A DNA stretch of 64,000 nucleotides from an uncultured Pseudomonadota bacterium (GTDB taxonomy: Bacteria; Bdellovibrionota_B; Oligoflexia; Oligoflexales; CAIYRB01), in the NCBI GenBank assembly GCA_903928445.1, contig CAIYRB010000102.1, forward strand, positions 1 through 64,000. The letters are read 5' to 3'. The translations under genes and the position numbers were made by a program. Positions 21,906-30,927 of the stretch are shown in pieces. The stretch's first letter is position 1. Every line of letters starts with the position of its first letter. The notes under the pieces were generated by a model. That model was not told the DNA's origin. It ran no database searches and saw nothing but the letters and a program-made list of their open reading frames with translations.

Positions 21906-22685
21906 TCACTGCAGCGGTATTGGTTTCACGCCGGTCGAAATATCATAGTGATATTGGATTAGGTGCTCCAGATCATGGTTGTAGTCGGTGTCTTTGACCA
22001 AGTCACTTAGGGCCGAAAGGGTCTTGAGTGGCAGGTCATGGCTGATGAAGTTGACGACAAAATCTGGAATGTTACCGCCGGGGTCTAGGACTACAGAGAA
22101 ATCAACCTCGGTCCGTTCATTGCCGCCACCTAGCGGCGTCATGGCCAACTTCGAACGCATCAGCGGCAGCCGTACCATACTCTTGACCGGAGGGTATTTG
22201 GCGTGGTCGGTCGTCTGAGTTTCAACGGTCAAACCAGCAGGGATTGACGGTGTCGCCGGGGTGACGACGACATGCGACTTGATGACGTAGTCGCGGTTGT
22301 GCAGGGGCCACGGTGATTTATTGATGGCATAGAAGACGCTGTACTGCGAGCTGAACGGCGCTTTCAAATCTTTGACGTTGTAGTTTCGATCGACCAATTC
22401 GCCGTGAATACAGCCTTCAAGCCAGCGCGGCATTTTGCTTGGCTCGGAAATGATCGAGATGATCTTCGCCATGCTGGCTTTGACCTCGCCGACGCCGCGG
22501 AATTCATAGAGCGACGTCCCAGGGACATCGCGTCGGTAGATCCGCACGCCGCCTTCTTCGCCCAGCGGTGACCACTCTGCTTGGGCCGCCGCCAGACCGT
22601 GACTAGGCGTAAACATGGTCGAACTTATCGTCAGTATGGTCGAGGCGACCACTAAGGCTAAGAGTGGCCTGAATCCGGAACCCAT
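21906..22685 (-). CDS. START-domain protein, secreted
   Basis: Signal peptide; GVRIYRRDVPGTSLYEFRGVGEVKASM, WPLHNRDYVIKSHV. Confidence 0.75.
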   Translation of the reverse strand: MGSGFRPLLALVVASTILTISSTMFTPSHGLAAAQAEWSPLGEEGGVRIYRRDVPGTSLYEFRGVGEVKASMAKIISIISEPSKMPRWLEGCIHGELVDRNYNVKDLKAPFSSQYSVFYAINKSPWPLHNRDYVIKSHVVVTPATPSIPAGLTVETQTTDHAKYPPVKSMVRLPLMRSKLAMTPLGGGNERTEVDFSVVLDPGGNIPDFVVNFISHDLPLKTLSALSDLVKDTDYNHDLEHLIQYHYDISTGVKPIPLQ

Positions 22686-22857
22686 GCCCAGTCTCCTTCT
22701 CTAGGGATAATCCCATTCTACCGCCCCCCGGCGTCCGAGGCTCTTCGGCATTTAAACCGCAATACTTTAGGCCTAATTGCCTCTTGTGTGGCATTTGACT
22801 ACCTCGCCTCGAGGCGCGCTAATACGCGAAGATCGTGGCATCTTTGGACCTATGGCA

Positions 22858-25800
22858 TTATTTTTTACCGCGGAACTGAAACTGATTATGACACGTTTCG
22901 CACTGGCTGAAGCCAGCTTGTTTGTGATTAGGGAAGCTGACCAGCAGCGAGTCCTCAAGGTGGCAACTGACGCACTCAGCACTCTTGCCCTGGTAGACCC
23001 CGTGTGCATGACATTCGCCGCATTCAAGCAGGCGGTGGGCACCGCGCAGCGGGAAGTCCGTCATGGCATGTTGAAACTTTGGTGCGCTCCAGAATTGCTG
23101 GATATGACAGCTCTTGCAGTCGGGTTGCGAGCCGAGGTGGACGTCGTCCTTTTGGTGGCAGAGCTTGCAGTCGTCACCGGTGCCGCTGAGTTGGCGATTG
23201 TCGGTATGGCACTGATTGCAGTCGAGCAGCCTATGCACGCCAGTCAGAATGAAGTCCTTGTGGAATCCAGCCGTCGCCCCCCATCCGGCATCGGTATGGC
23301 AGGTCGAGCACTTCGGTCCAAACCGTCCAGCATGCGGGTCTTTATGACACAGGGCGCAGTCCTTGGTGAGCAGGCCATCGAAGATAAACTTGCCTTTGGG
23401 GTGATGCGGTGACTGCTTATAGGTCGCCGTTGTCGGCGTATGGCATTCAACGCATTTGACCTCGACGTGCTTGTTTTTGACATCAAAGCGCGCCAGTTTA
23501 TGGTGATTGAAGGTCAGGCCCTTGGCGAAGTTGTTTTGATTATGACAGGTTGTGCAGACCTGGCCAGCCAAGGGCGGGTGGAACTGCTTGACGTGCTCCT
23601 TGGCATGGCAGGCATCGCAGTAGCCGCGACTTTCAAAGGCAAACAGGAACTGGTTCGCTGGCTTTGGCGGCGAGGTGGCGAGCAGCTTGTTGGTTTTGAC
23701 GTGGCACTCGCCGCAGTTGTTTTTGAACTTGGCATGGGCTCCGACAATCTGGAATTTGGTCTGGCTATGATCAAACGGCGATCTTTGGCCGAAGGTCTTT
23801 TGGTTGTGGCAGCTGAGGCACGGCTTTTTCGCAAACTGTTCGTCAAATTGACCGATGTGGACGTTTTTATGGCAAGAAAGGCAGAATCCTCCGGCGCTGC
23901 CGTCCACTCCCGGTGCGTCGAAGCGAAACTTCGCCGCCGGCCGTGGTGGCGTCGTCTCTAGCATCTGGTGGGTCTTGACGTGGCACTTGGCGCAATTGGT
24001 TTTGATATCGGCATGGGCCTCGACGAGTTTAAACCGCGTTTTATCGTGATCAAAGCCGCTCAGGTCCTTAAAGCTTTTGACATTGTGGCATTGCAGGCAG
24101 TTATCGCTGGCCGAAGCGGGGCTGAACTGCTCTTTGTGGATGTTCTTGTGGCAATCAACGCAGAATCCGCTTTGCGGATGCTCGAAGATAAACTTGCCTG
24201 CCGGCTTTGGTGGTTTGATCGGTAACATCGAGGCGCTTGGCTTGTGGCACTTGACGCAATCCGTTGCCAGCTTTTCATGGGCGCCGGTGATCTTGAAGCG
24301 GGACTCGTTGTGATTATAGCGCAGGTTGGCGAAGGCGACGGTGTCATGGCATGTGGCGCATGAGGCTGCCACGAGTTTAGGCTCAAATTGATTGGAGTGT
24401 ACCGTGACGTGACAACTGACGCAGAATTGCTTGTCGGCATTAGCAAACTTATAGACGGACTTGCCATTTTTAAGGTGACAGCTGGCACAGCTGATCTTGT
24501 TGTGGTCGCCGGTCAGGGGAAAGCGCGTCTGGGTGCTATGGTTAAAGCCGCTGCCGTTTAAGTTGACGGATTTCCAACCCTGCGTCGTGTGGCAGGTGCT
24601 GCATTTATTCTTGCGAAAGACCTCCGCGGATTCCTTCAGGTGCGGACTAGCATGGCAGGTCTCACAGGTTTTGCCGGCAAGCTCAGGGAATTCATACTTG
24701 CGGGCGGTATCCGGTGCTTTTTGGCCTTTGACCAGTGGCACATGGCAGCCAAAGCATTTGACCCCGATGTGTTTGCCATCGATGGGGTAGTTGGTCGACG
24801 TGTTGTGGTTGAAGTGCAAATCTGCCTTCCAGCCTGCCTCGGTATGGCAGGTTTTACATTGCGCCAGGACGCCCAGCTTTGGCGAGGTCTCGCCGCGAAA
24901 CCCATGGAAGTCCTTATGACAGGAGGCGCAGTCGCTTTTTAAGCCGGTAAAATTGGCGTGTTTTAGGTCGGTCTTGGCGCCTTTGGGCGGCTTGTGGCAG
25001 TCGACACAGGCCGTGGTTTGATGCTTGCCAAGCAAGCTAAAGCCGGTGATTTGGTGGTCAAAATGAGTGATCTTCCAGGTCTCTTGACCTTGGCTGTGGC
25101 ATTGCAGGCAGTTGCCGCCCTGAAATTTGCCCTGCAGATGATCTTTGTGAAAGTCGACGTGACAAGTCAGGCATTGCTGCTTGGGCAGTTCGGGGAATTT
25201 ATACTTGGCCGAGGCTTTGCCCTTAGGCAAATGGCAGGTGGCGCATTTGATCTTGGCATGGTCGCCGATGAGCGCATAGCCAGTCGCTTTTTTATGGTCG
25301 AACTCGGCACCTTTCCAGGTCGCATCGGAATGGCAAGCGCTGCACTCCTTGGCCGCCCACTGTGGCGGAAAAGCGTGGATGTCATCCTTGCGGTGGCAGC
25401 CATTACAGGTCTGGGTCTTGCCAAAGAAGCGGGTGTCACTGGACCGCGACATGGTGGCGCCGCGCTTTTCGGTGTGGCACTTGACGCATTTGATCTTGGC
25501 GTGAGCACCATGCAGGATGAAGCCGGTTTTGCTATGGTCAAACGTCTTACTGCTGACGACCGTGCTATTTAGGTCGCGGCCCTTGTGATCACTATGGCAG
25601 CCGATACAAGCTTGTTTGGTCATGGCGTGAAAGCTTTTTCTTTTGCGAATCGACTGCTGGATATCGCTATGGCAAGTCAGGCATTTGGCATCTGGGACGC
25701 CTTTGCCCGCATCATGACACTTAAGGCATGCGCCGTGTTCCAGCGAACGGTGGGCGAACATCAGTGGTCCTGGTGCCAGTAGCTTGTTAAAGACCCCTTC

Positions 25801-25914
25801 ACTGGAGTCACCCTCTTTGGCGCTCTCACTACCCAGGTCTTTGGCTGGGTCAGCCAAGGCAGGTGCGCCCCAGCAGCTCAGCATGATGCAGCATGCGGTC
25901 AGAAGTCGCAGCAC
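22858..25914 (-). CDS. Giant multiheme c-type cytochrome with 36 CxxCH motifs
   Basis: 36 CxxCH motifs counted in the 1018-aa translation; signal peptide ending ...GAPALA; about 11-12 repeats of F(D/N)H..T.F.L.G.H....CxxCH. Confidence 0.95.
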   Translation of the reverse strand: MLRLLTACCIMLSCWGAPALADPAKDLGSESAKEGDSSEGVFNKLLAPGPLMFAHRSLEHGACLKCHDAGKGVPDAKCLTCHSDIQQSIRKRKSFHAMTKQACIGCHSDHKGRDLNSTVVSSKTFDHSKTGFILHGAHAKIKCVKCHTEKRGATMSRSSDTRFFGKTQTCNGCHRKDDIHAFPPQWAAKECSACHSDATWKGAEFDHKKATGYALIGDHAKIKCATCHLPKGKASAKYKFPELPKQQCLTCHVDFHKDHLQGKFQGGNCLQCHSQGQETWKITHFDHQITGFSLLGKHQTTACVDCHKPPKGAKTDLKHANFTGLKSDCASCHKDFHGFRGETSPKLGVLAQCKTCHTEAGWKADLHFNHNTSTNYPIDGKHIGVKCFGCHVPLVKGQKAPDTARKYEFPELAGKTCETCHASPHLKESAEVFRKNKCSTCHTTQGWKSVNLNGSGFNHSTQTRFPLTGDHNKISCASCHLKNGKSVYKFANADKQFCVSCHVTVHSNQFEPKLVAASCATCHDTVAFANLRYNHNESRFKITGAHEKLATDCVKCHKPSASMLPIKPPKPAGKFIFEHPQSGFCVDCHKNIHKEQFSPASASDNCLQCHNVKSFKDLSGFDHDKTRFKLVEAHADIKTNCAKCHVKTHQMLETTPPRPAAKFRFDAPGVDGSAGGFCLSCHKNVHIGQFDEQFAKKPCLSCHNQKTFGQRSPFDHSQTKFQIVGAHAKFKNNCGECHVKTNKLLATSPPKPANQFLFAFESRGYCDACHAKEHVKQFHPPLAGQVCTTCHNQNNFAKGLTFNHHKLARFDVKNKHVEVKCVECHTPTTATYKQSPHHPKGKFIFDGLLTKDCALCHKDPHAGRFGPKCSTCHTDAGWGATAGFHKDFILTGVHRLLDCNQCHTDNRQLSGTGDDCKLCHQKDDVHLGSQPDCKSCHIQQFWSAPKFQHAMTDFPLRGAHRLLECGECHAHGVYQGKSAECVSCHLEDSLLVSFPNHKQAGFSQCETCHNQFQFRGKK

Positions 25915-27368
25915 TAGAGGCGCTCCAGTCGCGGGGCACGCTCGCGGGTTGGGGTTAGCTGGCGGCTGCCGAAGCGGTAGCCTAGGGTCATCAAGGCGCT
26001 GGTGAGCAGAGCTTTTTCGTCCTTGGCGAGCTCGAAGGTCAGTGAGCCGACCAAGCGCGTGCTCAACATGGTCGTCAGGCTCAGGTCAAAGATCAGTGGA
26101 TGCAGGGTTTCGCCGTTGTCGCGGTGTTCGATCATGGCCAGTTGCGTGAAATCGACGTCAACCTTGGCGGTGAAATAACTGGCGCCAAAGCGGGCGATGA
26201 GGTCGTGGCTGTTAAAGCTTTTACGGTAGCCGGCCCCGGCAAAGGCGGCGAAGCGGCCCTTTTGCAGATTGGTTGCGACGAGTTTGGCGTTGACGCTCGC
26301 GGCATTTTTTTGATCGCTGCCGCGCACGCCGATGCTCGAGACGCCCTCTAGCATCAGTCCTTTGTCCAACTTGAAGCGGGCATCAGCGCGGCCCTCCGTG
26401 TAAGCGCTAGCTGGGAGAATGTCGCGCAGATCGCGCTGTCTTTTATACTCGGTCGCGTCGATGCGCAGAGCCGCCAGCGTGCCAGAGAAGCGGGCGGTCC
26501 ATTGGTGATAGGCCGAAGCCCAAAGATTGCGCAGATGGACGCTTGGCTCCACATCGACGTGGGACAGGTAGGTAAAGCGCGTTTGTTCACTCGGCTGATG
26601 CACGATATTGCTGTACCAAAACAGGTAGTTTTTTAACGGCAGTGCACTATCCGCTGTTTCTGACTGCTGGGTCGTCGCACCGTCCGGCAGGGGCTGAGCC
26701 CGCTCAATATAGGTGCCGGGAGGCTGCACGGCGCTGACTGGCTGGCGCAGGACTAAAGCGGTGCTGGCATAGGTGCTGCGTTGCCAGTCTGGACCTTGAT
26801 CTTGGTACTGGGCATAGGCGCCAGCTTGGTGGTCTTCTTTAGCCAGTTGCAAGGTTTGTCCATGGCGCTGCTCGGGAAAGAGTCCGGCAAAGGCGCCGAT
26901 CTTGATCTTGGCGCCGGCTTTGATGCCGACGTCGACGCCGTCGTTACCTAGGACCGCGGCATCGGCAATAGGAAAGCGGCCAAGGGCCCAGTAGTAGGAC
27001 CCTTGATCATAGGGGTGTTTGACCGCCAGCTGCCGCAGTTGCGGCTCGTTGGACGGAATTAAACGTAGGCCGTTAGCGTCGAGAGCGCCGGCGAAGTAGT
27101 CGTATTTATCGCGAAGGTCCAAGGTAAACTGGTTCTTGTATGGTCCAATCTTGGCCGCATCAAAGTAAAGGCTGCCAAAGGCCGCCAAGGAATCGTTTTG
27201 ATCCGAGCCGGTGAACGGCGTGCTGTCCTTCTCGTGTGCGGAAAAAACTCCGGCATTGACGTGTCCAGCGTAGTCGATTGCCGCAGCGGGTGCGGCATGG
27301 ACGACCGTCGCAAAAAGGGTCCATAGACATCGTCGTGTCGGCATTGAAAGTGGACGAGCTGAGTGCAT
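25914..27368 (-). CDS. Outer-membrane beta-barrel protein, operon partner of the multiheme cytochrome
   Basis: Signal peptide; alternating aromatic/hydrophobic strands (FTLDLRDKYDYFAGAL, FTRYLSHVDV-like, LMTLGYRFG); 1-nt overlap with the cytochrome gene; no CxxCH. Confidence 0.7.
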   Translation of the reverse strand: MHSARPLSMPTRRCLWTLFATVVHAAPAAAIDYAGHVNAGVFSAHEKDSTPFTGSDQNDSLAAFGSLYFDAAKIGPYKNQFTLDLRDKYDYFAGALDANGLRLIPSNEPQLRQLAVKHPYDQGSYYWALGRFPIADAAVLGNDGVDVGIKAGAKIKIGAFAGLFPEQRHGQTLQLAKEDHQAGAYAQYQDQGPDWQRSTYASTALVLRQPVSAVQPPGTYIERAQPLPDGATTQQSETADSALPLKNYLFWYSNIVHQPSEQTRFTYLSHVDVEPSVHLRNLWASAYHQWTARFSGTLAALRIDATEYKRQRDLRDILPASAYTEGRADARFKLDKGLMLEGVSSIGVRGSDQKNAASVNAKLVATNLQKGRFAAFAGAGYRKSFNSHDLIARFGASYFTAKVDVDFTQLAMIEHRDNGETLHPLIFDLSLTTMLSTRLVGSLTFELAKDEKALLTSALMTLGYRFGSRQLTPTRERAPRLERL

Positions 27369-27395: not shown

Positions 27396-28787
27396 CTAGG
27401 ATTTTTTACGCGCTTCACCAAACTTTTTGTCGATCTTGATGCCTAAGGATTGCAGGAATGCGAACGGCATCTCAGCTCCAGCGAAGATAAAGATGAACTG
27501 ATTGGGCAGACGACTAGCGATGCCGTTCGCCTCAATGGCCAGGAAGTCGGCTTCGATCCGTGTCACAAAGGTATTAAACATGATCGTCACCAGCTTGCGC
27601 GCCGCCATGGACTGTAGGATATCGATATTTTCCTGATTGGCGCGGTTGAAGCCCGGGGTGCGCACCAGAATCGTCACCTTGTTACGAAGCTCCGGCTTGG
27701 CCAGGAATTGCGCGGCCTCGACGGCCGCGTTGCCGCCGCCGATCACGGCTACGTGCATGCGCTGATACTGCTCTGGTTCCAGTAGATTGTAGGTGACCTT
27801 GGCGAGGTCTTCGCCTGGCACATCGAGTTTGCGCGGCGTCCCGCGAACGCCCATGGCGAGGACGACCTTTTTTGCTTTGATCACGCCCTGGGTCGTCTCG
27901 GTGAGGAACAGCTCGCCTTCTTTGCGCAAGCTGATGAAGCGACAACCCTCGCGCACCTTGAGGCCGGTGCGGCGACGAACCATGCTCCAATACGCCAACA
28001 GCTCTTCTTTGGTGACCTTGTTGCGAGGAAATTTCATCGTGCCGACGATCGGCAGCGTTGCCGGCTGTGACATCACGACCTTTTGCCTAGGGAAATTAAA
28101 GATCGTACCGCCGACCGAATTTTGATCGATGCACTTATAAGGACGCTTGGCCGCAATCGCTGCGAGCGCGGCCGATAGCCCGGCGGCGCCAGCGCCGACG
28201 ATGAGGATATCGCAGTCAGCCTTGCTGCCACCTCTGAGATGTTGCACCGCATGCTCGACGGCCATACGGCCTTGCTTGACGGCATTACGGATAAGTCCCA
28301 TGCCACCGAGTTCACCGACGATATAGAGGCCCTTGACGTTGGTTTCAAAATCGCCGGTGATGCGCGGCAAATCCATGCCGCGGGTCTTGGTGCCAAACAC
28401 CAGCGAGATGGCACCAAAGGGGCAAGCGACCTCGCACTGGCCATGGCCGACGCATTTTGTCGGCGCCACCAAGACCGCCTTATGGTCGATCATCTGGAGG
28501 ATCTCGCCCTCAGGGCAAGCTTTGACACAGGCGCCGCAACCAGCACAACGCACTGGGTCGATATAGGGGTGTAGGCTGATCGGCTCGGCCATATCGTTAA
28601 CCACGGCCTGTTTATAGGCGTGTAGCCCTTCGCTATGGACGGCGCGACGGCGGCGAATCCCTACAGCTGCGATCAGCAGCAGTGAACCAATGCCGATGTA
28701 CTCCGCCGACTTGCCGAGGAACACAGATATATGCGACCAATGCAATGGTCTGTCCTCCCCAGTTCGAGTGCTAGCATAGGATTGCAA
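27396..28787 (-). CDS. Membrane-anchored 2x[4Fe-4S] ferredoxin / FAD-NAD(P) oxidoreductase fusion
   Basis: N-terminal TM segment; CAGCGACVKACPEG and CVGHGQCEVACPFG; FAD GAGAAGLSAALAA; NAD(P) VIGGGNAAVEAAQF. Confidence 0.88.
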   Translation of the reverse strand: MQSYASTRTGEDRPLHWSHISVFLGKSAEYIGIGSLLLIAAVGIRRRRAVHSEGLHAYKQAVVNDMAEPISLHPYIDPVRCAGCGACVKACPEGEILQMIDHKAVLVAPTKCVGHGQCEVACPFGAISLVFGTKTRGMDLPRITGDFETNVKGLYIVGELGGMGLIRNAVKQGRMAVEHAVQHLRGGSKADCDILIVGAGAAGLSAALAAIAAKRPYKCIDQNSVGGTIFNFPRQKVVMSQPATLPIVGTMKFPRNKVTKEELLAYWSMVRRRTGLKVREGCRFISLRKEGELFLTETTQGVIKAKKVVLAMGVRGTPRKLDVPGEDLAKVTYNLLEPEQYQRMHVAVIGGGNAAVEAAQFLAKPELRNKVTILVRTPGFNRANQENIDILQSMAARKLVTIMFNTFVTRIEADFLAIEANGIASRLPNQFIFIFAGAEMPFAFLQSLGIKIDKKFGEARKKS

Positions 28788-28947: not shown

Positions 28948-30927
28948 TCAGGGCTTGTGCGACAACGGCGGCGGTGGACCGACCAGGTGCAAGGCGTGTA
29001 TTGCGGCAGCGATCTCTGCCTGCGCGGGTTGATCCGGGGCGATCTTGGCGTAGTCAGCGTAGAGCCGTTCGGCTTCATCTGCTCGCCCTAAGGCCAGCAG
29101 GCTTTTGCCCATCTCTACCACGACGCGCACGTAGTATGGGTACTGCCGGTGGAGAAGGCTCCATTGATCCAGCGATTCAGACCAGCGCCCCTGCTCTTGT
29201 AGGTTGGTGGCCCAACTTTGGCGGGGTCCATAGGCTGTTGGCGCCAAGCTGGTCGCTTGGGCAAAGGCCTTCTCTGCCTCTGGCAGGCGATGCGCTTTGG
29301 TCAGTGCCGAGCCGAGATTGGTATAGGCTTGCTGGTACTCGGACGCTATCCGGATGGCTTCGCGACACTCAAAGATGGCTTCGTCGAGGCGCCCGAGGTC
29401 GGTGAGCGCGGCGCAGCGATTGCAGTGGGCGAGGGGATAGGCTGAATGGAGTTTGATCGCGGCGGCATATTCGTCGGCCGCTTCTTTGGTCTCGCCTAGG
29501 TTCATGTGGGTGGTGCCCATATTATTATGTGGCCTGGACCATTCGGGAAGGGCCTGCTCGGCTCGCTGCAATAAGGGGATGGTGCCGCGCCAGTTGCCGC
29601 TGTTGGCGGTATCGTTGGAGAAGCCGACCAAGGCGACGGCACCGTTTGGTTCTTGCTCCAGGCTGTGGCCAAATAATTTACGTTCGCTCGACCAGGTGTC
29701 GACGAGGAAGGCGCTTTGCACGGCGAGACCGGCGAGGATCAGACCGAAGACGAGTTGCACGGGCTTGGTTTTGGTCCTAGGCAGATACAACGCCGCCACC
29801 AAAATCGCCGGGGCAAGCATCGCTAGATAGGCGTAGCGGTCGCACACCATCGAGAAGAACTGGTAGGCAAACTGCAGAAATCCCAGCGTTGGCAGCAACG
29901 CGACGGCAAAGGCCGCGAGCAAGATGGCCACCAGTTTAAGCCCTGGCGTGGGCTGTCGCCAACACCGCCAAAGCAGCGCTACGCCGATGACATAAGGAAG
30001 GCCCCCGCGCACCAGCAGCCAGGTGTCGCGCATCACCAAATCCGGCCTGCGGCCGTAGTCCAGGGCAAAACCGACGGGTATAAACGCTTTTTGTAGATAA
30101 AAAATCCAAGCGTCACCAGCGATCAAGGGTCTGAGCGACCAGGGTACTGGTGGAAATGGCCCCTCGGTACCCTGCGTCACGCTGGCCACCTTGAGGTACC
30201 AGGCAACGGTCAGTAGGTGCGGTATGACCAGCAGCACCGAGCGCCAACGCCAGCGCCCTTCAGTATACAGCGCCATCAGCACGAACAGCGGCGGCAGGAT
30301 CACCTCTGCTGGCTTTGCCATGATGGCTAAACTAAAGGCCGCATAGGCGGCGACGTAGCAGCCCAGGAGCTTGGTCCAGGGCGAGCTGGTAGTGCCTTGA
30401 GGCAAGGTAAGACGGCGGAGAAACCAGGAGTAGAACAACAAGGCGGCTAAACCAAAAAATCCCGACAAGACGTCCTTGGCGCCCGATACCCATGCCACCG
30501 CTTCGACTTGGATCGGATGGAGGGTGAAAAACAGCCCACCGATCAGCGCCGCCATAGTGCTAGCGCCAAAGCCCTCAAGCAGGAAGAGCACCAGCACCCC
30601 ATTGGCAGCATGCAGTAGCACGTTGCTCAAGTGATACAGCCACGGCTTGATCGACGGCACCTGCGCATCGCCATCCAGAGCATAGGACAGTGCCGTAATC
30701 CCGGACCAATAGGTGTAGGTCACAGGGATGTACAAGCCAAGAAACGGCGCGCGCCAATAGGCTGACACCGCATCGAGACTCAGCGCCTGCATGCGTGGGT
30801 TATTGCTGATATGCCGATCGTCATCATGCTCAAGGAAGCCAAAGCGCACGGCGTTGCCAAATACCAGCAGGACCAGGACCAAGATTATCGCGGGCCCTTG
30901 CCAGCGCCGGGTCAGCATACGGGGCAT
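28948..30927 (-). CDS. Polytopic GT-C-like membrane protein with C-terminal TPRs (TMTC-like)
   Basis: Multiple TM helices, EHDDDRHISNNPRMQ N-terminal motif, C-terminal TPRs (AYPLAHCNRCAALTDLGRLDEAIFECREAIRIA). Confidence 0.75.
   Translation of the reverse strand: MPRMLTRRWQGPAIILVLVLLVFGNAVRFGFLEHDDDRHISNNPRMQALSLDAVSAYWRAPFLGLYIPVTYTYWSGITALSYALDGDAQVPSIKPWLYHLSNVLLHAANGVLVLFLLEGFGASTMAALIGGLFFTLHPIQVEAVAWVSGAKDVLSGFFGLAALLFYSWFLRRLTLPQGTTSSPWTKLLGCYVAAYAAFSLAIMAKPAEVILPPLFVLMALYTEGRWRWRSVLLVIPHLLTVAWYLKVASVTQGTEGPFPPVPWSLRPLIAGDAWIFYLQKAFIPVGFALDYGRRPDLVMRDTWLLVRGGLPYVIGVALLWRCWRQPTPGLKLVAILLAAFAVALLPTLGFLQFAYQFFSMVCDRYAYLAMLAPAILVAALYLPRTKTKPVQLVFGLILAGLAVQSAFLVDTWSSERKLFGHSLEQEPNGAVALVGFSNDTANSGNWRGTIPLLQRAEQALPEWSRPHNNMGTTHMNLGETKEAADEYAAAIKLHSAYPLAHCNRCAALTDLGRLDEAIFECREAIRIASEYQQAYTNLGSALTKAHRLPEAEKAFAQATSLAPTAYGPRQSWATNLQEQGRWSESLDQWSLLHRQYPYYVRVVVEMGKSLLALGRADEAERLYADYAKIAPDQPAQAEIAAAIHALHLVGPPPPLSHKP

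Follow-up and report, generated by a model that had tools for sequence, protein, structure and literature searches.

What could a bacterium gain from a single polypeptide that carries 36 c-type hemes? The question is raised by a cytochrome gene on contig CAIYRB010000102.1 (GenBank assembly GCA_903928445.1) of an uncultured bacterium of the Oligoflexales, the first 64,000 nucleotides of which, read on the forward strand, constitute the stretch analysed here (the window). A first-pass annotation of these letters had described the gene product as about 12 tandem tri-heme modules, possibly forming a nanowire-like chain. Our finding that a predicted outer-membrane channel and a membrane-anchored reductase are encoded next to the cytochrome suggests that the gene set as a whole probably moves electrons across the entire cell envelope. 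We propose, with a probability of about 0.68, that it encodes a trans-envelope porin-cytochrome conduit related to the types PCC3 and PCC4, in which one continuous heme wire of variable length spans the periplasm. It is the porin and the iron-sulfur/flavin reductase, both overlooked by the first-pass annotation, that say most about function.

The open reading frame encodes 1018 residues with 75 Cys, 85 His and exactly 36 CxxCH motifs, and these fall, as counted before, into 12 modules of 66–93 residues with no heme left over. The suggested three-heme periodicity is pronounced: a phase of three accounts for 59% of the variance in CxxCH spacing as opposed to 6% by permutation (20,000 permutations, P < 1e-4), so that a chance origin of the repeat is ruled out, and periods of 2, 4 and 5 explain nothing. 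When the sequence contexts of the hemes are compared without counting the C, C and H of CxxCH, the mean BLOSUM scores are +6.7, +0.3, −2.8 and −11.3 at lags of 3, 6, 9 and 12 hemes, respectively, and at all other lags the contexts are dissimilar (−27 to −32). The motif F(D/N)HxxTxFxLxGxH...CxxCH, previously put at about 11 copies, is found ahead of the first heme in 11 modules (with the variants YNH in m7 and FHKDF in m11), and module m1 has it in a contracted form (FAHRSLEHGACLKCH).

Every module furthermore contains three extra histidines in all 16 homologous proteins examined: two (FxH ... GxH) precede the first heme and the third, usually within CHxxxH, lies between hemes 2 and 3. For the contracted module m1 they were established by inspection (H55 and H60 in the window protein). 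The eight CHxxxH examples quoted in the first-pass annotation all exist, and each represents the second heme of one of the modules m3–m10. When 93 two-module rows, drawn from 15 homologous proteins, are aligned, the set of invariant columns coincides almost exactly with CxxCH plus the extra histidines. Three conserved histidines per module would suffice to give each heme a second ligand. It is thus likely that all 36 hemes are bis-His ligated, and the earlier proposal of paired His ligands is borne out by both the number and the conservation of the histidines.

The cytochrome is predicted to be exported to the periplasm. It combines a Sec signal, for which an AxA-type cleavage site is common to the homologs, with 36 hemes, 12 repeats and the lack of a conserved lipobox, that is, with the very high heme number, repeats and periplasmic location by which PCC3 cytochromes are recognized. 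Anchoring as a lipoprotein or at the surface was considered and rejected: VTSC- or MLSC-like cysteines occur in the signal peptides of some homologs only. Pfam matches comprise Cytochrome_C7 (E 3.9e-37), Cytochrom_c3_2, Cytochrom_CIII and Mtrc-MtrF_II-IV, and NCBIfam yields only matches below threshold, to the DmsE, GSU2203 and OmcA/MtrC decaheme families. A value of ∼33 residues per heme in MtrA homologs has been taken as the sign of a wire (He et al. 2017, PMC5566968); the density found here, 28.3 residues per heme, is lower and is therefore counted in favor of a wire. Searching the PDB with the single sequence (phmmer) gave no match, and the family profile ranks the crystallized heme wire GSU1996 first (3ov0, E 1.3e-10), followed by MtrF, HmcA and MtrA (6r2q_A, E 6e-8). 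CxxCH contributes most of the signal in these matches, and they should carry little weight. Given the low residue-to-heme ratio and the remote sequence similarity to GSU1996, it is plausible that the protein forms a nanowire-like heme chain.

The cytochrome gene is the last of an operon shared with the porin and the oxidoreductase, its GTG start overlapping the porin stop by one base (TAGTG) and being preceded by GGAG 8 nt to the 5' side. Porin and reductase genes accompany the cytochrome gene here as in each of the homologous operons recovered. In all of these, the window operon included, the (predicted) porin gene lies immediately upstream of the giant multiheme cytochrome gene, an arrangement characteristic of PCC3. 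The domains of the oxidoreductase are probably cytoplasmic. Most related operons encode in addition a tetraheme cytochrome (130–180 residues, lipobox-like start) between reductase and porin, and those with 24-, 27- and 33-heme cytochromes encode, upstream of the reductase, an inner-membrane protein of 260–290 residues with two WX3HX13H motifs, SGxxG and, by inspection, five helices. Five helices, two WX3HX13H motifs and SGxxG are the published mark of the inner-membrane proteins of PCC3 and PCC4, where the motifs are read as two b hemes (PMC5566968). The genome also encodes cytochrome c assembly genes.

The orientation of the putative wire is suggested by smaller relatives. Residues ∼40–230, which correspond to modules m1–m2, alone match 7-heme cytochromes encoded on plasmids of Sphingobium, Bradyrhizobium, Variovorax, Methylophaga and others. 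In all three loci inspected, the 7-heme cytochrome gene lies directly downstream of a gene for a protein of ∼250 residues, for which paired HX13H motifs were read in Methylophaga and Bradyrhizobium, and no porin is annotated near the cytochrome genes of these three loci. Because the 7-heme relatives thus adjoin the same kind of inner-membrane protein and no annotated porin, comparison of the sequences suggests that the m1–m2 end docks at the inner membrane and that, by exclusion, m11–m12 would face the porin. The plasmid loci (L056 8228-9747, L057 8285-9801, L059 7205-8813) each present a trio of a 2Fe-2S protein, an HX13H inner-membrane protein and a small multiheme cytochrome, the latter with 7 hemes where counted and an N-terminus resembling m1–m2; two of the loci lie near copper or heavy-metal genes.

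Homologs of the cytochrome (E <= 1e-20) are present in 5/5 congeners searched and in one other family of the order (f6), and nowhere else among the 58 genomes of the phylum set. They carry 24, 27, 33 or 36 hemes, always in whole modules (8, 9, 11 or 12). The 36-heme form comprises the window protein and those of four congeners, the 33-heme form complete proteins from five genomes of f6. A 27-heme paralog exists in the window genome and in congener G001, which also holds the window operon interrupted by a contig end, and a 24-heme paralog in congeners G002-G005. In the window genome the paralogous operon (L006 4800-11131; G000:C29:88799-95130) encodes the inner-membrane b-type protein, the 4Fe-4S/flavin reductase, a tetraheme lipoprotein-like cytochrome, the porin and the 27-heme cytochrome. 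Scanning this fragmented assembly for paired CxxCH revealed no third giant-cytochrome locus.

Heme spacing is fixed at the ends of all homologs (15, 25/26, 40 at the start; 17-19, 17, 32, 16, 24 at the end) and varies in the middle. Module-by-module identities and a tree of all modules likewise group modules by position and not by protein: m1, m2, m6, m10, m11 and m12 correspond one-to-one in all proteins, with tree support of 0.85–1.0 for m1, m6, m11 and m12. By contrast with these, m7–m9 of the 36-heme proteins are represented by two modules in the 33-heme and by one in the 24- and 27-heme proteins; m7, m8 and m9 form a clade (0.935) with that single module and with m8 of the 33-heme proteins. 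At the DNA level m8 and m9 are 76% identical over 90 nt, and m7 and m8 72% over 81 nt. As modules are conserved by position across genera, most duplications must be old; recent repeat slippage or an assembly artefact was rejected, the modules differing by at least 55% in protein sequence and keeping their positions in independent genomes.

Trees of the reductase and of the common modules separate the 33-heme operons of f6 from the paralogous operon pair of the window genus (36 and 24/27 hemes), which groups with 94% support in the operon tree, the root being weakly placed. The first-pass annotation had proposed growth by module duplication. Gain is real, as witnessed by proteins of 8–12 whole modules and the expanded array m7–m9, but it is only part of the history: the 27-heme paralogs lack m3 and the 24-heme paralogs both m3 and m4, which means that losses occurred as well, and after rooting of the operon tree we abandoned growth by duplication alone for gain and loss combined. 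The simplest history, the order of which depends on a root that is not firm, starts from an ancestor of ∼11 modules; the line with 36 hemes then had one gain, and modules were lost in the line with 24/27 hemes. It has been proposed (Soares et al. 2022, as cited in PMC12203936) that multiheme cytochromes evolve by grafting and pruning of modules.

Several observations weigh against a trans-envelope conduit. First, the porin is identified by size, signal, beta-rich sequence and context and not by a family match, since its product has no Pfam or NCBIfam match. Second, the window operon contains neither the inner-membrane protein nor the tetraheme cytochrome, and this 212-contig assembly holds a single copy of the inner-membrane protein gene, in the other (27-heme) operon. 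Each genome of the window genus in fact encodes two reductases and one inner-membrane protein, the latter always in the operon with the shorter wire; hence the 36-heme conduit probably uses the membrane protein of that operon. Third, structure prediction lends little help. The full-length AlphaFold model, based on 21 sequences, was unusable and discarded (predicted local distance difference test score, pLDDT, 41), and a Foldseek search of the PDB with a two-module model (pLDDT 84.5, predicted template modelling score 0.63) returned chance matches only and no solved cytochrome.

If the conduit indeed exists, the following picture emerges. The 36-heme protein would enter the periplasm and fold as 12 covalently linked, bis-His tri-heme units that may form a continuous wire. 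Its N-terminal modules m1–m2 would exchange electrons with the di-heme b protein presumed to dock there, which the operon's membrane-anchored 4Fe-4S/flavin NAD(P) oxidoreductase would serve, and the C-terminal cap m11–m12 would meet the porin, where electrons could pass the outer membrane. The middle modules would then fix the length of the wire, which could vary in whole three-heme units.

The same anatomy could also be operated in reverse, with extracellular Fe(II) or another donor as the source of electrons and the quinone pool or NAD(P)+ as their destination, by way of the porin and the heme chain. This alternative does not exclude the conduit, and we regard it as a serious, if minority, possibility. 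PCC3 and PCC4 are found in Fe(II) oxidizers and have been modelled as uptake systems (PMC5566968; PMC10734462), and the flavoprotein could work as an NAD(P)+ reductase. However, neighbouring genes in the window look heterotrophic (acyl-CoA ligase, enoyl-CoA hydratases, E1 dehydrogenase, peptidases), and we slightly favor electron export from NAD(P)H to an outside acceptor.

Considering the fixed ends and the variable middle together, it is tempting to speculate that the cytochrome represents a length-adjustable wire made of a single polypeptide: caps m1–m2 at the inner membrane and m11–m12 at the porin would remain constant, the 4 to 8 interchangeable tri-heme modules in the middle would evolve as whole units, and one cell would hold two lengths (27 and 36, or 24 and 36 hemes) served by one inner-membrane b-heme protein, the longer wire reaching past the outer membrane. 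In this full form the proposal is tentative. A related variant of the conduit, in which the cytochrome threads the porin and extra modules extend beyond the surface so that length sets the outward reach, appears unlikely. It would account for versions with 27 and 36 hemes in one cell and for the lack of a separate extracellular giant cytochrome in the window genome, and our own estimate of ∼1 nm per heme, derived from GSU1996 and MtrA, gives ∼30–36 nm for 36 hemes, more than the usual periplasm. Yet the closest PCC3 cytochromes described (21–27 hemes) are predicted to be periplasmic (PMC10734462), and neither a surface signal nor an anchor was found in the cytochrome. Least probable is a periplasmic electron store, such as has been suggested for Geobacter GSU1996, or a general carrier, in either case without a direct link to the porin. 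GSU1996, the top profile match in the PDB, is indeed described as a capacitor (PMC10138318), 36 hemes can take up 36 electrons and no conserved lipobox or outer-membrane anchor is present. Against a store speak the constant pairing with porin and iron-sulfur/flavin reductase in all operons compared and the distinct N- and C-terminal caps conserved in all homologs whatever their length, caps for which a store would have no need.

How does the putative conduit relate to known systems? By published description, PCC3 of Sideroxydans, Leptothrix and Gallionellaceae (PMC5566968, PMC10734462) shares (i) a porin with a very large, repeat-rich periplasmic cytochrome of low residue-to-heme ratio, (ii) the five-helix inner-membrane protein with two WX3HX13H motifs, here present in the paralogous and related operons, and (iii) heme numbers that are likewise multiples of three, the cytochromes of Gallionellaceae having 21, 24 or 27 hemes and being modelled as long and mostly linear (PMC10734462). 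In contrast to PCC3, the window operon encodes no second giant extracellular cytochrome and no inner-membrane protein, adds a 4Fe-4S/flavin NAD(P) oxidoreductase, and the 33–36 hemes exceed the 21–27 described. PCC4 (He et al. 2017, PMC5566968) resembles the present operons in its porin, a tetraheme cytochrome (found in most related operons), an inner-membrane protein with the same motifs, the absence of an extracellular giant cytochrome and, apparently, one more redox protein encoded ahead of the tetraheme gene. Beside porin and inner-membrane protein, PCC4 includes an Fe-S protein and other redox genes, and a 4Fe-4S/flavin oxidoreductase is present here. PCC4 differs in employing three periplasmic cytochromes with 4, 5 and 10 hemes, of which the 5- and 10-heme proteins are replaced here by one protein of 24–36 hemes.

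Like the Geobacter heme wires (GSU1996 and GSU0592 with 12 hemes each, GSU2210 with 27), the cytochrome is one polypeptide of linked tri-heme domains. In cytochromes c7, whose hemes are in van der Waals contact, two extra ligands precede heme 1 and the third precedes heme 2, whereas the order found here is His-His-A-B-His-C, the third His of each module following heme 2 and preceding heme 3. GSU1996 was crystallized as a wire of 4 x 3 hemes with gaps of 3–5 Å and has one His-Met heme per domain (PMC10138318, which also reports a 27-heme Geobacter protein), whereas three His per module suggest bis-His ligation throughout the window protein; a porin partner of GSU1996 is not described in the literature surveyed. 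MtrA, DmsE, MtoA and PioA likewise pair a periplasmic multiheme cytochrome with MtrB-type porins and match in part at the profile level. However, the window cytochrome scores 75.8 bits against a cut-off of 192.2 for the MtrA/DmsE family (TIGR03508), the MtrA-type proteins not being tri-heme arrays and having ten hemes and not 36; for OmcA/MtrC (TIGR03507), the score is 40 bits against a cut-off of 209, and a conserved lipobox is missing. Among the Bdellovibrionota, a recent report describes MtrAB in magnetotactic members of another class (PMC13200544).

More distant relatives occur in clusters of Bacteroidota, Ignavibacteria and Gemmatimonadota, which share the inner-membrane protein, the 4Fe-4S/flavin oxidoreductase and a homologous cytochrome of tri-heme modules (∼30–37% identity). 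There, unlike in the window, a second large cytochrome (12–40 hemes) follows and the last module of the homolog has two hemes. The homolog carries 20 hemes (six full modules and the two-heme module) in four loci of metagenome-assembled genomes (MAGs) and 23 in Emticicia, where the additional module resembles the neighbouring third module. The MAG loci, from Gemmatimonadetes, Ignavibacteriales and two 'Paludibacter' (L034-L037), combine the 20-heme cytochrome with partners of 12, 22, 25 or 30 hemes, most of which are 1+3n or 3n. In the cultured Bacteroidota species Emticicia oligotrophica, plasmid pEMTOL02 (L058 5691-14387) encodes the inner-membrane protein, the reductase, 23- and 40-heme cytochromes and a probable porin; the 40-heme protein includes tri-heme repeats that are nearly identical and thus probably arose by recent duplications.

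Tri-heme wires such as GSU1996 and PCC3 cytochromes of 21, 24 or 27 hemes have been published, and the kind of protein is therefore known. As far as the literature searched shows, what is new is the size of 33–36 hemes for the periplasmic type, the position-by-position module history behind the steps of three, the pairing with a 4Fe-4S/flavin reductase without a second giant cytochrome, and the lineage. The homologous series of 24, 27, 33 and 36 hemes offers a wire with constant ends whose versions differ solely in the whole tri-heme modules in between, and makes the growth of heme wires, the relation of length to envelope width and that of conductance to length testable. Gain and loss of whole units would let wire length shift in fixed steps. 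Conduits resembling PCC3 and PCC4, so far known mainly from iron-oxidizing Proteobacteria, are extended to another bacterial lineage, and for the related cluster Emticicia oligotrophica represents a tractable test organism.

Table 1. Positions of the cytochrome gene, its modules and its operon partners in the window.
Feature	Position	Strand	Remarks
36-heme c-type cytochrome	22858..25914	-	GTG start; 1018 residues, 12 modules of three hemes
Probable cleavable Sec signal peptide	25846..25914	-	residues ∼1-23, ...APALA|DP; by sequence inspection
Module m1	25555..25776	-	residues 47-120; contracted N-terminal cap; m1+m2 common to 7-heme cytochromes
Module m2	25312..25554	-	residues 121-201
Module m3	25075..25311	-	residues 202-280; without counterpart in 24- and 27-heme paralogs
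Module m4	24823..25074	-	residues 281-364; without counterpart in 24-heme paralogs
Module m5	24556..24822	-	residues 365-453
Module m6	24325..24555	-	residues 454-530
Module m7	24061..24324	-	residues 531-618; first of expanded array m7-m9
Module m8	23782..24060	-	residues 619-711; expanded array
Module m9	23521..23781	-	residues 712-798; expanded array
Module m10	23287..23520	-	residues 799-876
Module m11	23089..23286	-	residues 877-942; compact C-terminal cap
Module m12	22861..23088	-	residues 943-1018; compact C-terminal cap
Predicted outer-membrane beta-barrel porin	25914..27368	-	484 aa; beside the cytochrome in 17/17 operons compared
Oxidoreductase	27396..28787	-	one N-terminal membrane helix, two 4Fe-4S sites, FAD/NAD(P) domain (YpdA/Pyr_redox_3-like)

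Long antisense open reading frames lie inside the cytochrome gene (22777-23412 and 24994-25572, both on the plus strand); they are probably a by-product of biased codons and not genes. Downstream of the cytochrome, positions 21906-22685 (minus strand) encode an exported protein of 259 residues, START-domain-like by eye, which has no Pfam or NCBIfam match and is not found next to the homologous operons. Upstream of the operon and on the same strand, a large multi-span membrane protein with C-terminal TPR repeats is encoded at 28948-30927 (minus strand).

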